DNA of 64,000 nucleotides, taken from a virus. Positions within the stretch are counted from its first letter, which is position 1, and every line of letters starts with the position of its first letter. The DNA lies in IMG/VR virus record IMGVR_UViG_3300030294_000015, positions 30,153 to 94,152 of that record; one strand, given 5' to 3'. The notes under the pieces were generated by a model. The model was not told where the DNA came from and ran no database searches. It saw only the letters and a list, made by a program, of their open reading frames with translations. This document shows, in pieces, positions 22,021-35,822 of this stretch. The translations under genes and the position numbers were made by a program.

Positions 22021-22962
22021 ATGAAAAAATTTATGACAAGGGACGAAAACAAAAAAATCATCAGTGTTTCAGATTGGCAGGCAGAACCACAAGATTTATT
22101 AATTATGCAAATAAATGATTATATAATCGCACCTGTTTCAAAATATTTCAATGCGGATCAAAGTATGGATTATTTTTCAGTAAGATCTAAAAAAGCATAT
22201 AATAGACCTGAACTTAGAGCACTAATAGTACATAAATTGAATTACTTTGAAAAGTTCTATGATACTGATAAAGAGTTGTTAGCTGTATATGCTAATATAA
22301 AGTATCTTATAGATTGTGAGCCTAACTATACTAAAGAATCATTATTCTATGATCTAAAGAAGTACATAATTCATGGACCATCCTTATCATTAAAAATGGA
22401 CTATATGAATAAGGATAATTATAGACCAGCAAAAATTAAATTTAATGGAAGCGATAGGTTATTATACTATGATAATAGTCATATATATATAATGATGAGA
22501 ATATCATTAACTATGACAGCTATTATTCCATTACTAACTCATTTTGCCAATAAGAAAAAAGTACAATTGATAGAACCCTTTCTATTAGAAATTTATTCTT
22601 ACATTATTAGATCATATAGTGATTTTGTAGATTTATATTCTAAATATACAGGAACTTGTGCTACTATTATATCTAAGAATAAAAGATATAATAGTATATG
22701 GAATAATCAGGATATAAGATCTATAAATGAAACTACTCAAACAATAGCATCTGTAAATAATATCATAGTAAACATTATGCCAAAATATATATATAATGAC
22801 TCCGCAGTCACTTTGAACTTCGCATCTGTAGGTAATGTTATTAAGTATAAAATAACTGATGCTGGGTATGATTTTGCTTATTCTTCTCTCAGTTCATCAG
22901 ATAGGGATTTTGAAGAGATAAGCTCATTTGATAAGTATGAGGCATTGCTAAGTAAGTGTGAT
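22021..22962 (+). CDS. Intron-split conserved phage protein, exon 1
   Basis: Exon 1 begins at ATG 22021 behind GAAGGAGGAG and encodes 314 residues starting MKKFMTRDEN. Joined to exon 2 at 24554 it gives a protein of about 501 residues. The exon end is inferred from a P1 helix: exon GTGAT pairs with intron GTCAC (22970-22974), with the conserved U-G pair at the splice site after T22962. Beyond it the frame soon stops at 22992. The joined product resembles, from memory, a conserved unnamed protein of large phages found beside primase genes. Function is unknown. It is mainly helical with no membrane segment. Confidence 0.7.
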
Positions 22963-24553
22963 CGGTTTGGTCACTTCTCTATAGTAATATAGAGTCGAAT
23001 AACTCTCTATAAATTGCTGGGAAGCTCACAAAAGTTCATAAACCATAATAGAAATAAAAATGGTAACGAAAGCAGAAACAATATATGAACCTGACATATG
23101 CTGAAATAAAAGCCTATTATATAGGTGCTAAGTGTTATTGACAAGGAGTAATCAGCAGCAAATTAATATTATCATCTTAAAAAATACGAATAAGAAGGGA
23201 AAGATATTTATACAATTAAAATCATTTATGACACGAGATATACCTAATCCTAATCATACATTTCTAAAGAAAAACGGTTTACAACAATTCATGATAAGAG
23301 AACCATTTTTATTTGAAGAATGGGTACAAATATGTACATTCTTACCAGAAGTGAAAGAATATTATTGGATAAGTAATCATGGTAAAGTATTAAATAATAA
23401 ATCCATACCATTTGTACATATGAATATTAACTTGGATAACCGTGGATATGAACAAATTTCATTGTCTACAAATAATGGAGGTAAAACTTTTAAAGTACAT
23501 AGATTAGTAGGAATAGCATTTAATTATATAGATAATTATGAAGAATTGACAGTGAATCATTTAGATGCAAACAAACGTGATAACTATTCATATAATTTAC
23601 AATGGGCTACTAATTATGAAAATATGAGACATGCATGTGAACATGGTTTGTTTCCTGTTGGTGAAGATTCCTTTTTAAGTATATTATCTAATAATGATGT
23701 AGAAAATATATGTAAATATCTTCAAGAAGGATTACCATTTGAAACTATTATAGAAAATGTTCCAAACATGAATAATCTTAGATACCCAATATCTTCAATA
23801 TGGTCTATTTATAGTAGATGGGCATGGAAACATATTTCTAAAAAATATGAGTTTAGTATCTATAAAGGTAATAGATTTAAATTTAATAATAATGAAATTA
23901 TTAAAATATGTGAATATTTGGAACAAAATCTAGATTATAAAGAAATAATAAAAGGATTAGGATATGATATAACTAATATGTCTAAAGAAACTTTAAAGGA
24001 ATATAATCATTCTATTAGTACTATAAGATTAAAACAAACCTATACTGAAATATCTAAAGATTACAATTTTCATACTGAAAGAAGTTATCAAAAATTTAAT
24101 ACAGATGAAATACATGAAATTTGTTTTTATTTACAAAGCGGTTTAGATTATGAAAAAATACTAAAAAGAATGAATGTTGTTCCTAATAATGAAACAGAAC
24201 TGTATAATTATAAATGTGTAATATCAAGAATAAAAAGCAGAAGATGTTTTCAAAATATATCAAACAATTATGAATTTTAAGATGATAATTAATTTGTTCA
24301 ACGACTATCGAAAGCTATATACTAAGACGATATTCTTAGTTGAAAATAAGGTATTAGAGATAATACACGAAGCAAGTAGAGTAGAGCCAAGTGGTAAGGT
24401 TTCTCGTAATAAGAGATATAATACCTTTTAAATCGAAACAAGAGAGCTGCCTATATATTCGTTATAGGTAGATGATATAGTCTACTATCTTACTTAACAG
24501 TAAGGAAGTTTATAATAAAACTGTACTATCTAACGAATAGTATGAATACTAGG
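22963..24553 (+). ncRNA. Group I intron with an HNH endonuclease gene inside
   Basis: The four classical group I core elements are present in order: P (AATTGCTGGG, 23013-23022), Q (AATCAGCAGC, 23149-23158), R (GTTCAACGACTA, 24296-24307) and S (GATGATATAGTCT, about 24471-24483). P1 is GTGAT with GTCAC. P10 can form between GAAGCC at the 3' exon and GGTTT at 22964-22968, which places the last intron base at G24553 and keeps the frame. The endonuclease gene lies between Q and R. The RNA is expected to self-splice using guanosine. Confidence 0.8.
23228..24280 (+). CDS. Intron-encoded HNH homing endonuclease with NUMOD4 domain
   Basis: The protein probably cuts intronless copies of the host gene to spread the intron. 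It has a NUMOD4-like part (FEEWVQIC, then YYWISNHGKVLN), an HNH core (KVHRLVGIAFN, then LTVNHLDANKRDNYSYNLQW) and a C-terminal half of three helical repeats, each of the type ICKYLQEGL to YEF, likely for DNA recognition. The start is uncertain: ATG 23228 is the first ATG, but the frame is open upstream to 23132, overlapping the intron core. FMTR (23225-23236) and FMIR (23288-23299) precede the domain. There is no clear ribosome site other than AAGAAGGGAAAG at about 23191. Confidence 0.8.
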   Translation: MTRDIPNPNHTFLKKNGLQQFMIREPFLFEEWVQICTFLPEVKEYYWISNHGKVLNNKSIPFVHMNINLDNRGYEQISLSTNNGGKTFKVHRLVGIAFNYIDNYEELTVNHLDANKRDNYSYNLQWATNYENMRHACEHGLFPVGEDSFLSILSNNDVENICKYLQEGLPFETIIENVPNMNNLRYPISSIWSIYSRWAWKHISKKYEFSIYKGNRFKFNNNEIIKICEYLEQNLDYKEIIKGLGYDITNMSKETLKEYNHSISTIRLKQTYTEISKDYNFHTERSYQKFNTDEIHEICFYLQSGLDYEKILKRMNVVPNNETELYNYKCVISRIKSRRCFQNISNNYEF

Positions 24554-25117
24554 GAAGCCTTAGTTCTCCAGAATAATGTAAATGGAGAACAAGCAATGCA
24601 ATTAATAAGAATGTCATTTGGACCTTTTGATAATAATGAAATAGAATTTTATAGAAGAAGATTAAATGTTGATAACTCTGGAGTTATTCATACATTCCAG
24701 AAAGACTTAATATTTAATATCTTTTATAAGTATTTCGGTGATACTATGTCTGTTAATACTATAAATGAAACAGATTATATTATTTTATTATTAGCTGCAA
24801 AGAAAATATCAGAACAATCTAAATGTAGATATCTTCCATATGTATTTAGTGGCAGAATTACTCGATATGTAAGGAAAACAAAATTAAATAAAAAAGAAAA
24901 AGATAAAATGATTACTTCTCCTGATTATAGATTGATTCAACAAATGTATAGAACATCAAAAGTTTTAGACCAAATGGAATCTTATGCCGCTACTATTTTA
25001 TATAGTGATTTTGAAATGATTGATTATAAGAATCCTCAAAATGATGGTGTAATGTTACCAAAGTTTCCTGAATTAGTTGTACATGAAATACAGAAGTATG
25101 TGTTATGGATTTCCTAA
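24554..25117 (+). CDS. Intron-split conserved phage protein, exon 2
   Basis: Exon 2 gives 187 residues starting EALVLQNNVNGEQ and ending at TAA 25115-25117. The nearby ATG at 24542 is within the predicted intron and has no ribosome site, so exon 2 is translated only after splicing to 22021-22962. The spliced junction reads LLSKCD then EALVLQ, which keeps one open frame of about 501 residues. The stop overlaps the start region of the primase gene. Confidence 0.7.
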   Translation, partial: EALVLQNNVNGEQAMQLIRMSFGPFDNNEIEFYRRRLNVDNSGVIHTFQKDLIFNIFYKYFGDTMSVNTINETDYIILLLAAKKISEQSKCRYLPYVFSGRITRYVRKTKLNKKEKDKMITSPDYRLIQQMYRTSKVLDQMESYAATILYSDFEMIDYKNPQNDGVMLPKFPELVVHEIQKYVLWIS

Positions 25118-30007: not shown

Positions 30008-30214
30008 TTAATAGAATTCTATTGGTTCTAATTTTCTTTGTGTCTCTGGTAATATTAATGTAAAATTATATAAAGCTTGTATAACTTCATTAGTAGGCTT
30101 CCTTACATTTTTACCACCTAGATCCACATAAAATCTTTTTGATTTTAGATATTCATCTAATTCTTTATTTGCTTCTAAAGTATAAGCAATTTTTACACTA
30201 TATTGATCTCCATC
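30008..30214 (-). CDS. RNA polymerase beta'-like subunit, exon 2
   Basis: Exon 2 encodes 68 residues starting DGDQYSVKIAYT and ending PIEFY. Joined to exon 1 it completes the catalytic metal-binding loop as GDYDGDQ, the counterpart of the universal DFDGD motif of beta'. The frame is also open upstream within the intron (LSDYDLRNLK), but the P10 pairing places the exon start at base 30214. The product ends soon after the catalytic loop, so the rest of beta' must come from another gene, as in phiKZ-like phages with split subunits. Confidence 0.8.
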   Translation of the reverse strand, partial: DGDQYSVKIAYTLEANKELDEYLKSKRFYVDLGGKNVRKPTNEVIQALYNFTLILPETQRKLEPIEFY

Positions 30215-30655
30215 CTTCAGATTTCTTAAATCGTAATCTGATAATTTATAAATTAAGACGATTTAAAAAATGTTAGTGTAACCTGTAGACGCAACTCTAC
30301 CAGAAGACTTTCATCTTCCTAGACTATATTATCTTGAATCTCTTCAAGCTACCTCTTTCGGAATTATCATAAGCTTATAATCCCTACTCTACTCGCTTCG
30401 TGTATATTTATTATACCTTATTTTTAACTAGACATATCTCTATGTAAACTAGTATATAGCTTTCGATAGTCGTTGAACGTTCCCTATTTATATTAAATAA
30501 GGCTTCGATGCTGATTACCCAATTATTAATTATTCTCAAGCATTCACACTTAAAGTTTCCAATTATGTTGTAGCTAATTAACTTTCTAAGGCTTTCCAGC
30601 AGTTAAGGTAGTTTTTGTTTCGGCTTTTGCCAAGAAGACTACAATGGAGAGGTTT
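30215..30655 (-). ncRNA. Group I intron (441 nt) in the RNA polymerase beta' gene
   Basis: On the minus strand the core elements appear in order: P (AACTGCTGGA), Q (AATCAGCATC), R (GTTCAACGACTA, complement of 30467-30478) and S (GATAATATAGTCT). P1 pairs exon GGAGACTAT with intron GTAGTCTTC and ends in the conserved U-G pair at the splice site. P10 pairs exon GATGGA with intron TCCATT. These two helices fix both ends and restore the beta' catalytic motif. No endonuclease gene is present. The R-side core is almost identical to that of the intron at 22963-24553. Confidence 0.88.
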
Positions 30656-32080
30656 ATAGTCTCCTTCAGTAGATGATAACGCTAAAGAACATATGTTTAG
30701 TGTATCTTTAAAACTGGAACTTGTATTGGTTCCTATATCTTCTTCTCTTATCTTTGGATAATAAGGATAGAATTCATTATTTATATATACAGGTTCTGTT
30801 TCTACTGTAGATGATATCCTAATTTTGTTAGGAAATTGTCCAAAATAAGTATTCATAGGATATCTAGTAATTAAAGCATGTTTATCTTTACACATTTCTA
30901 CAGCAGCCATATAGAATAAATCACACCATGTTAATCGTCTATTGTAAATAGATGTAACCTCATCCATATCTTCTTTCTTTTCTGTATTAGGTGTATTATT
31001 ACCTTTAAAATACATATATCTAATTTCACCTGTTGTTAATTCTACTTCTATAGGAATAAATCTATTAGAATATCCATGAATAAATCTCTTCATATATTTC
31101 TTTATTACATCATCAGAGAATTGTACAAAAGGTTCTTTTACTTGTACTAATTTGGCTTCACCTTTTTCATCATATAATATTTTTTGATTAGTACCACCAA
31201 ATTCATTTTCAAAGAATCTTCTACAATAGAATAATATATAAGGAAATAAATTTGCTATTGCAGATGCTAAAGGTAATGCACAATGCCTATTATCTACCAT
31301 TAAATCATCTACAGACTCTACATTCAAATTAGTTTCAGAGACGACTAATCTAGAAGAATAGTCAGATGTTTTGGACATTACAGATCTTTTTATAATACCA
31401 TATTTCTTTCCTAGATTTGGTTCTTTTGTAAACCAATCATAAATTTGTACTAATAATTCTTGTACTCTTCCTATAGTTGCAGATGTCATAGAGAAACCAA
31501 AGTCATCTGTTTCCTTCAAAGCATTTACTGCTATTATAATAGAATTATACATTTTATTAATTTCACCAACACCTAATGATTTATTCCCTGTATTTACATC
31601 TCTATAATATGCTGGGATAATAATATACTTATCTATGAATAGTGTACCGTTCTTTTTATTATTTGATATAAAGTCTATATTAATATCTCTCTTTAATGAA
31701 TCTGTGGATTTAAATTTCATTTTATCTATATTACTTTTAAGAAACTCAATTCCATTATCCCCATTTTCATCTTCTTCTAATAATCCTTGAGAATTTATTT
31801 TAAACTTCTTTACACCATGTACACATTCTTTAACTTTTCTATCCATTCTACACCATATTTTATAAGATAGTGGATCTATAAAAGATTTATATAAATCAAC
31901 ATAAGCAAATATATTTGCTCTTTGATCTTTAGATATTCCGAATACATCATTAGATAATAAACCATCTGACGTTGGAATACCACTACTAACAAAATATATT
32001 GGATTTGTGATTTGTTTAAGATTATTCTCTTTAATTAATCTTGCTGGGTTGAGTGTTTCGATTTTGACATGTCTTTCCAT
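30656..32080 (-). CDS. RNA polymerase beta'-like subunit, exon 1 (N-terminal part)
   Basis: This is the N-terminal half of a phage multisubunit RNA polymerase beta'-type protein (475 residues; 543 after splicing). Visible features are PIYFVSSGIPTSDGLLSNDVFG at the N-terminus, split here as PIYFVSSGIPT and GLLSNDVFG, typical of phage beta' subunits; KRSVMSKTSDYSSR (about 231-244), part of the double-psi barrel; and RYPMNTYFGQ, the counterpart of the NRAPTLHR region. The exon ends at STEGDY. It is the last gene of a minus-strand block headed by baseplate genes, which suggests a virion-packaged polymerase that would transcribe early genes. Without splicing, translation would run 25 residues into the intron and stop at 30578. 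Confidence 0.85.
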
Positions 32081-35045: not shown

Positions 35046-35822
35046 ATGAAATTGAAAGATATGAATTTAGGTATTAAATTTGTAGTAACAGGAGATTGGA
35101 TATCATATATACAGTATAATACAGATGAAAAAATAACAGATGTAAGAACTCAAAGAGAATTTAAAAGTTTTGAATATATTGAATTAAAAAATATGATAAG
35201 AATATTGGTTAAAAATGATTATGCTAGAATTGCTGTTATACCAAGTACATATAGTGAATTCAATTGTATGTATTACAGCTTTTTACTATTTAATAAGCCA
35301 TCTATTACAGATAAGGTTTTATCTTCTAATAAGATCGTGCAATATATTATAGAACAAAACAATTTAGAAGATATGGATGTATCTCTCATGAAAATTAATA
35401 ATAGTAATTCAAGAAAATATTTAGATGATTTTGATGGAGATACTTTAAATATTATGTATGAAAAGATACCAGCAAATAATTATGAGGAATATCATTATAA
35501 AAATGATAGAATAATAAAAGATATTATAGACTTCTATGAAATAAAGAATGATAAAGATTATTCTAAATTAGGAAAATACATAGATAGTATTTTCCCTAGA
35601 TGTATAGAAGAAAAAGTATATTTATCACAATTAATAATAGCATTATTAACTAATTTCCATGATATTGATAAAATGAATCAAACATCAGTATCACGTGTTT
35701 CATATGGTGATATAATTAAAGGTAATTATGATTTTGGAGATATTCAAAATATATTTATAGAATATCCATTAGAATATAAAATGTTACAAGATATATACCA
35801 AGCGTTACCTACTGTAGAGTAA
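35046..35822 (+). CDS. Hypothetical protein, 258 residues
   Basis: It starts at ATG 35046 behind AAGGAGTGTTGTAAAA. The fold looks mixed alpha/beta with a helical second half. The sequence DDFDGDTLNI near residue 125 looks like a polymerase Asp motif by chance but lacks any polymerase context. Function is unknown. Confidence 0.7.
   Translation: MKLKDMNLGIKFVVTGDWISYIQYNTDEKITDVRTQREFKSFEYIELKNMIRILVKNDYARIAVIPSTYSEFNCMYYSFLLFNKPSITDKVLSSNKIVQYIIEQNNLEDMDVSLMKINNSNSRKYLDDFDGDTLNIMYEKIPANNYEEYHYKNDRIIKDIIDFYEIKNDKDYSKLGKYIDSIFPRCIEEKVYLSQLIIALLTNFHDIDKMNQTSVSRVSYGDIIKGNYDFGDIQNIFIEYPLEYKMLQDIYQALPTVE

Follow-up and report, generated by a model that had tools for sequence, protein, structure and literature searches.

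How can a phage RNA polymerase gene encode an active enzyme if its reading frame breaks off among the codons for its catalytic aspartates? This question is raised by a gene on the minus strand of a 64,000-nucleotide stretch of viral DNA (hereafter the window), which covers positions 30,153 to 94,152 of IMG/VR record IMGVR_UViG_3300030294_000015. An earlier note, made from these letters alone, had proposed that a group I intron is inserted in the catalytic Asp loop of a phage beta' gene, and that splicing of this intron would operate as a switch for the enzyme. It is very probable that the element belongs to the group I introns, probably to subgroup IA, and lies between residues two and three of the DYDGD motif in the gene for the N-terminal half of the virion RNA polymerase (vRNAP) beta' subunit of a phiKZ/AR9-type jumbo phage. 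The exon/intron boundaries, the homology of the gene, the conserved RNA structure, the existence of alleles with and without the intron, and an endonuclease-like ORF in the intron of a sister virus are direct observations, from which we infer splicing, an active protein and past homing.

The interrupted gene and its catalytic motif

Exon 1 (30656..32080, minus strand) contains 475 codons and ends in STEGDY, while exon 2 (30008..30214, minus strand) resumes with DGDQYSVK and comprises 68 codons and a stop. The 441 nt that separate them (30215..30655, minus strand), which begin with AAA and end with AAG, constitute the intron, as delimited by an Rfam match, covariation, and homologues at the same site. 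It lies between the Tyr and Asp codons of GDY|DGDQ, within the metal-binding active-site codons of the gene. Translation of the joined exons yields 543 residues; the sequence at the expected joined junction is GGAGACTAT^GATGGAGAT, and an empty, intron-free motif site reads GGAGACTATGATGGAGAT. Without splicing, translation would end after 500 residues, having read 25 codons of the intron and not reached DGD, in agreement with the earlier claim that the polymerase lacks its active site unless splicing takes place.

The exon 1 protein is matched by PHROG 2986 (RNA polymerase beta subunit; E=1.5e-58), and its nearest characterized relative is the first segment, or exon, of AR9 gp145 (E=1e-55), with identities of approximately 31-35% to AR9 gp145, LPJP1, BpSp and SA1. 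Pfam does not recognize this protein, although PHROGs and profile-to-PDB searches do, and a single-sequence search of the PDB with the window protein gave a best match of only E=0.9. Homology over the whole length, combined with a catalytic DxDGD that is rebuilt by joining, places the product among the beta' N-terminal subunits of phiKZ/AR9 type. AR9 gp145 is among the virion RNAP subunits, and the vRNAP genes of AR9 are late genes (PMC5312081); the proximity to AR9 gp145 and the PHROG match make it most likely that the window gene encodes a virion-RNAP beta' N-terminal half of the AR9 gp145 type, whose packaging is suggested by orthology.

In order for the junction to be credible, related genes should read through it. 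A homologue in which GDY is not followed by DGDQ had been named as a potential refutation; in intronless LPJP1, BpSp, SA1, Goe21 and S6, and in approximately 32 IMG/VR genes, the motif is uninterrupted, (G/A)D(Y/F)DGD(Q/T/M), with Listeria phage LPJP1, Bacillus phages BpSp and Goe21, and Staphylococcus phages SA1 and S6 reading GADYDGDT, GGDYDGDT or GADFDGDM. A profile of 23 homologues matched the AR9 nvRNAP beta' chain 7s01_d (E=2.5e-21), with DYDGD aligned on DYDGD, as well as cellular beta' 7xya_D (E=8.3e-17) over a stretch that contains NADFDGDQ, and in the solved beta' chains matched by this profile the motif lies on the catalytic loop. The intronless homologue L027, modelled with AlphaFold in place of the joined window protein (mean pLDDT 81.8, pTM 0.54), resembled the same kind of beta' chains by fold, the best being 7s01_d (E=6.5e-20), with low global TM-scores (~0.34) and an uncertain domain arrangement. 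Intronless homologues, profile and fold match together indicate that splicing would rebuild the metal-binding motif of beta', and PHROG 2986, AR9 gp145 and 7s01_d bear out the placement of the intron in the catalytic Asp loop of a phage beta' gene.

A further ORF of the window (35046-35822, plus strand; 258 aa) also carries the letters DDFDGD. Pfam RNA_pol_Rpb1_2 matches around this motif with E=0.068, and no match was found in PHROGs; it is possibly a chance occurrence, or possibly a remnant of another polymerase subunit.

Intron RNA structure and splice sites

A covariance-model scan restricted to the region matched the intron core to RF00028 (Intron_gpI) with E=1.3e-9 and 42.9 bits, on the minus strand as had been proposed. 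The family cut-off is 50 bits, and because the window intron scores below it, a default scan of the whole window at the Rfam gathering cut-offs lists no matches. The intron at the same site in the relative L038 exceeds this cut-off (79.1 bits).

Eight introns that occupy the identical site (those of the window, L020, L021, L025, L026, L038 and L089, and the second intron of L060) were aligned following removal of their endonuclease ORFs. The pairs of P1, P3, P4, P7 and P10 are standard in 95.8% of cells, versus 89.9% in shuffles, and 19 cells are changed on both sides, versus 6.0 in shuffles; slid versions of the pairing scheme are all far worse. The P3, P4 and P7 core is 95.8-100% paired in the eight introns, which is the pairing of a group I core. 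P3 is formed by CTACCT (30606..30611) and AGGTAG (30349..30354; this and all following coordinates of helices refer to the minus strand), with compensatory changes at two pairs; P4 involves TGCTGG (30596..30601) and TCAGCA (30509..30514), both strands being identified by the RF00028 match and the covariation alignment; and P7 associates GACTA (30467..30471) and TAGTC (30322..30326), invariant in the same-site alignment. The remaining elements, namely P2, the P6 hairpin CCTTATTTAATATAAATAGGG (30482..30502), the P8 hairpin (30333..30348; z -2.6), and the P9 and P9.1 hairpins (30285..30318; z -2.1 for the 3' domain), rest on single-sequence folding, the alignment slipping in P2, P6, P8 and P9 in a manner that precludes covariation scoring; the P1-P2 region is predicted to be far more stable than its shuffles (z -4.8). 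Between P7 and the 3' strand of P3 lies an insert of approximately 110 nt, which alone folds no better than shuffles (z -0.5). Subgroup IA introns carry P7.1/P7.2 hairpins between these two strands, and the long insert suggests that the window intron is probably a member of this subgroup.

The two splice sites are defined by different helices. P1, of 10 bp including a terminal U-G, pairs the exon strand AGGAGACTAT (30656..30665), supported by covariation and folding, with the internal guide GTAGTCTTCT (30633..30642); four of its pairs are changed on both sides among the same-site introns, as in GACTAT/GTAGTC to GATTAT/GTAATC. P10, of 6 bp, pairs TCCATT in the intron (30643..30648) with GATGGA at the start of exon 2 (30209..30214), and displays compensatory changes at two pairs (TCC/GGA in the window, ACC/GGT in L020, and GCC/GGC in L026 and L038). 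The window boundaries read TAT|AAA ... AAG|GAT, and a U-G pair is present at the 5' splice site in 8/8 same-site introns; the L021 junction carries an ambiguity of one base. When both strands of the 64 kb were scanned for places whose next 40 nt would form, with these exon ends, a P1 of at least 8 bp abutting a P10 of at least 5 bp, 25 overlapping starts were found among 127,880, roughly the number that one location alone would contribute when 40 nt are slid along. The compensatory changes in P1, P3 and P10 render both splice sites independently well supported, and the suggestion that P1 and P10 fix them separately has thus stood up to the comparison of the eight introns.

These features can be assembled into a splicing pathway, in which the intron RNA would fold within the transcript and the 5' exon end, GACUAU, would dock on the guide through P1. 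Guanosine would then cut at the 5' splice site, exon 2 would be aligned by P10, and ligation of the exons would generate an uninterrupted 543-residue beta' half with its three catalytic aspartates.

A hotspot for introns in polymerase genes of related phages

The initial scan for relatives returned two copies of one close relative only, while a scan with the exon 1 alignment led to 80 loci, which together with named phages represent approximately 65 distinct genes. Within these genes, introns are confined to two places: TRYPI(D/E)SYFN, around residue 410, which we take to be the NRxPxLH-type active-site motif and which is interrupted in 8 genes, and GG-D-Y/F-D-G-D, around residue 479. In the latter motif 25 introns could be delimited, and all five codon boundaries of GG|D|Y|D|G|D are occupied: GG|D in L030, L056, L060, L068 and L070; D|Y or D|F in L073 and phiKZ gp180; Y|D in the window, L020, L021, L025, L026, L038, L060, L089 and L094; D|G in L082 and AR9; and G|D in L059, L088, L099, Madawaska, MarsHill, phiR1-37 and Serratia phage 2050HW. 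The gene of the last phage is more distant and was found via DNA similarity, not by the profile, and for L068 the intron start could be placed only to within about a base. The codons for DxDGD in the virion RNAP genes of jumbo phages serve as a landing pad, where different introns have settled at different boundaries.

By an established view, homing introns prefer active-site codons of the highest conservation (PMC12908238), which accounts for the choice of this site; the GDY|DGD boundary ranks first of 536 for conservation in the gene. A stretch near residue 45 is almost as conserved, yet it carries no introns. Nearly all of the 25 motif introns follow a U and end in G, and since the codons involved mostly end in T, the U rule alone favours codon boundaries. 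More than half of the related genes are free of introns altogether.

A singular arrangement is found in L060 (8464-8980 of that locus; IMGVR_UViG_3300032167_000242), where two tandem group I introns, both free of endonuclease, flank a microexon of 6 nt, GATTAT, which encodes only 'DY' (GIGG|intron|DY|intron|DGDQ). Both exceed the RF00028 cut-off (95.4 and 78.9 bits), and a third intron is located upstream in the same gene, in the TRYPI motif.

Introns in this motif have been annotated before, in AR9 and in Madawaska/MarsHill. The orthologous AR9/PBS1 gp145, a three-piece gene in GenBank, contains two group I introns, one of which lies in the same motif; it differs from that of the window in being inserted one codon later (DYD|GD) and in carrying a 494-codon endonuclease ORF, and the second AR9 intron is in the TRYPI motif, unlike in the window gene. 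In phiKZ a group I intron interrupts the homologous beta' catalytic motif, as in the window, but at D|FDGD, with an HNH ORF (gp179), and the record used does not mark it as an intron. In that record (L004:1857-3299) gp180 is annotated as ending at GAD, before the unannotated intron that contains gp179, and exon 2 (FDGDTVSFN...), at approximately L004:3300, is absent from the annotation. Staphylococcus phages Madawaska and MarsHill and Yersinia phage phiR1-37 have the same gene and motif interrupted, with the intron positioned at DFDG|D instead. The MarsHill intron (L014:6830-6987) measures 158 nt, which is very small for a group I intron, and is apparently reduced; in Madawaska, whose gene is nearly identical, the intron at this site is 1472 nt long and includes an endonuclease ORF. 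The IMG/VR contigs of L006/L007/L020 (143,890 and 263,571 bases) share with the window the gene, the intron and the site, their intron differing in its length of 1231 nt and in a NUMOD4-type ORF in the P7.x loop. In phiPA3, a phiKZ-like phage, a virion RNAP gene likewise has a group I intron after its conserved aspartates, although this gene, gp210, encodes the beta subunit and not beta', and the endonuclease of the intron was shown experimentally to be active and to be used in phage competition (PMC11620839). Disruptions inside the DxDxD motif of beta' genes have been described for crAss-like phages (PMC7886860). An intron in the beta' motif is accordingly of a kind already known, and the interesting parts are the hotspot and the 'DY' microexon; in the literature, which was covered incompletely, no description was found of a motif occupied by introns at each of its codon boundaries.

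Mobility of the intron and rival explanations

The 441 nt of the window intron hold no ORF of at least 60 codons, whereas endonuclease ORFs lie inside the same-site introns of L020, L021, L025, L026, L089 and L094. In the sister L020, whose exon 1 is 82% identical to that of the window, the same intron at the same site holds a 290-codon endonuclease-like ORF with a weak NUMOD4 match, under the Pfam cut-off; the ORFs of L021, L025, L070, L089 and phiKZ match HNH_3 or NUMOD4 above it. The place of the ORF within the intron varies, being the P7.x loop in L020 and the P6 loop in L025 and L030; intron ORFs were therefore acquired more than once. An intron-free allele as close as L020 was not found for the window lineage. 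On the gene tree the Y|D intron state changes six times, five of these changes being forced by well-supported branches, and such a sporadic pattern fits a mobile element, not a control device that is maintained. A homing intron would have settled in those codons of an essential gene that are conserved best, and there an imprecise loss would be lethal. Lacking an endonuclease ORF, the window copy would now be inherited vertically, or move only by means of endonucleases encoded elsewhere.

A 75-nt segment of the window intron (30407..30481, minus strand; intron nt 175-249), which corresponds to the loop that bears the endonuclease-like ORF in L020, is 96% identical to part of an intron in a DNA polymerase gene of the same virus record, and over intron nt 178-272 there is 81% identity with a third intron, which lies at approximately 22981-24541 of the window. 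The simplest reading would be that introns of one genome have exchanged segments, and such an exchange may also have been the route by which the window intron lost its ORF. The third intron, of group I and on the plus strand, includes a NUMOD4/HNH-like ORF (23132-24280) and splits an unnamed gene (parts at approximately 22021-22990 and 24541-25117), which in the L020 sister virus is one uninterrupted frame of 518 aa. The intron outside the window (L110; G000:C1 ~24398-22650, minus strand), also of group I and with a 447-codon endonuclease-like frame, directly follows KIDTNSLYG of an apparent phage family-B DNA polymerase gene; it has no Rfam match at E<=0.01.

The lack of an endonuclease ORF could also be a sign of decay, with an intron that no longer splices and either a pseudogene or two parts translated separately as a split subunit; RNAP subunits of such phages are indeed split elsewhere into separate polypeptides (PMC5312081). 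However, the core helices and both splice-site pairings are intact and covary, the exons are conserved with respect to the sister (82% identity for exon 1, and 72% for exon 2, compared to L006), and no in-frame ATG, GTG or TTG occurs between the last in-frame stop and exon 2; we consider either form of decay highly improbable. An intein, or another in-frame protein insertion, has in its favour nothing beyond the interruption itself and does not account for the RF00028 match; the frame stops after 25 codons and meets more stops before exon 2, which rules it out.

The suggestion that splicing serves as a switch, being delayed to late infection or dependent on GTP or a ligand and thereby timing the appearance of active virion polymerase, draws on the unspliced 500-aa product, which has no DGD, on the late expression of AR9 vRNAP genes (PMC5312081), and on the co-option of group I introns for regulation, known in principle (PMC3984707). 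Nevertheless, no conserved leader, ligand-binding element or unspliced isoform was found, and at 30150-30750 none of the other RNA families described in Rfam matched at E<=1. The unspliced extension is not conserved (0 codons in L073, L082 and phiKZ, approximately 25 in the window and L020), the intron is missing from more than half of the homologues, near-twins that share 99.5% identity over the first exon differ (none in Goe21, two in AR9), and the Y|D intron has appeared or disappeared at least five to six times along the gene tree, while conservation of the site suffices to explain the position. This part of the earlier proposal is consequently not supported beyond the trivial inactivity of an unspliced product, and there is very little chance that it is correct. 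Less improbable, if still doubtful, is the idea that the endonuclease-free copies at the landing pad (window, L038, L060, L073, L082) are kept because they shield the site against endonucleases of other introns or gate the polymerase, such a role in persistence being hypothetical.

The mobile group I intron, which remains by far the preferred reading, carries implications beyond this locus. In a giant-phage polymerase gene, the 15 nucleotides with the highest conservation have been repeatedly invaded by introns, at each codon boundary, and annotation can easily miss the active site of polymerases split in this manner. The resulting natural set of matched alleles (no intron, intron only, intron with endonuclease, and two introns with a 6-nt exon) offers material for studies of how introns settle and compete.
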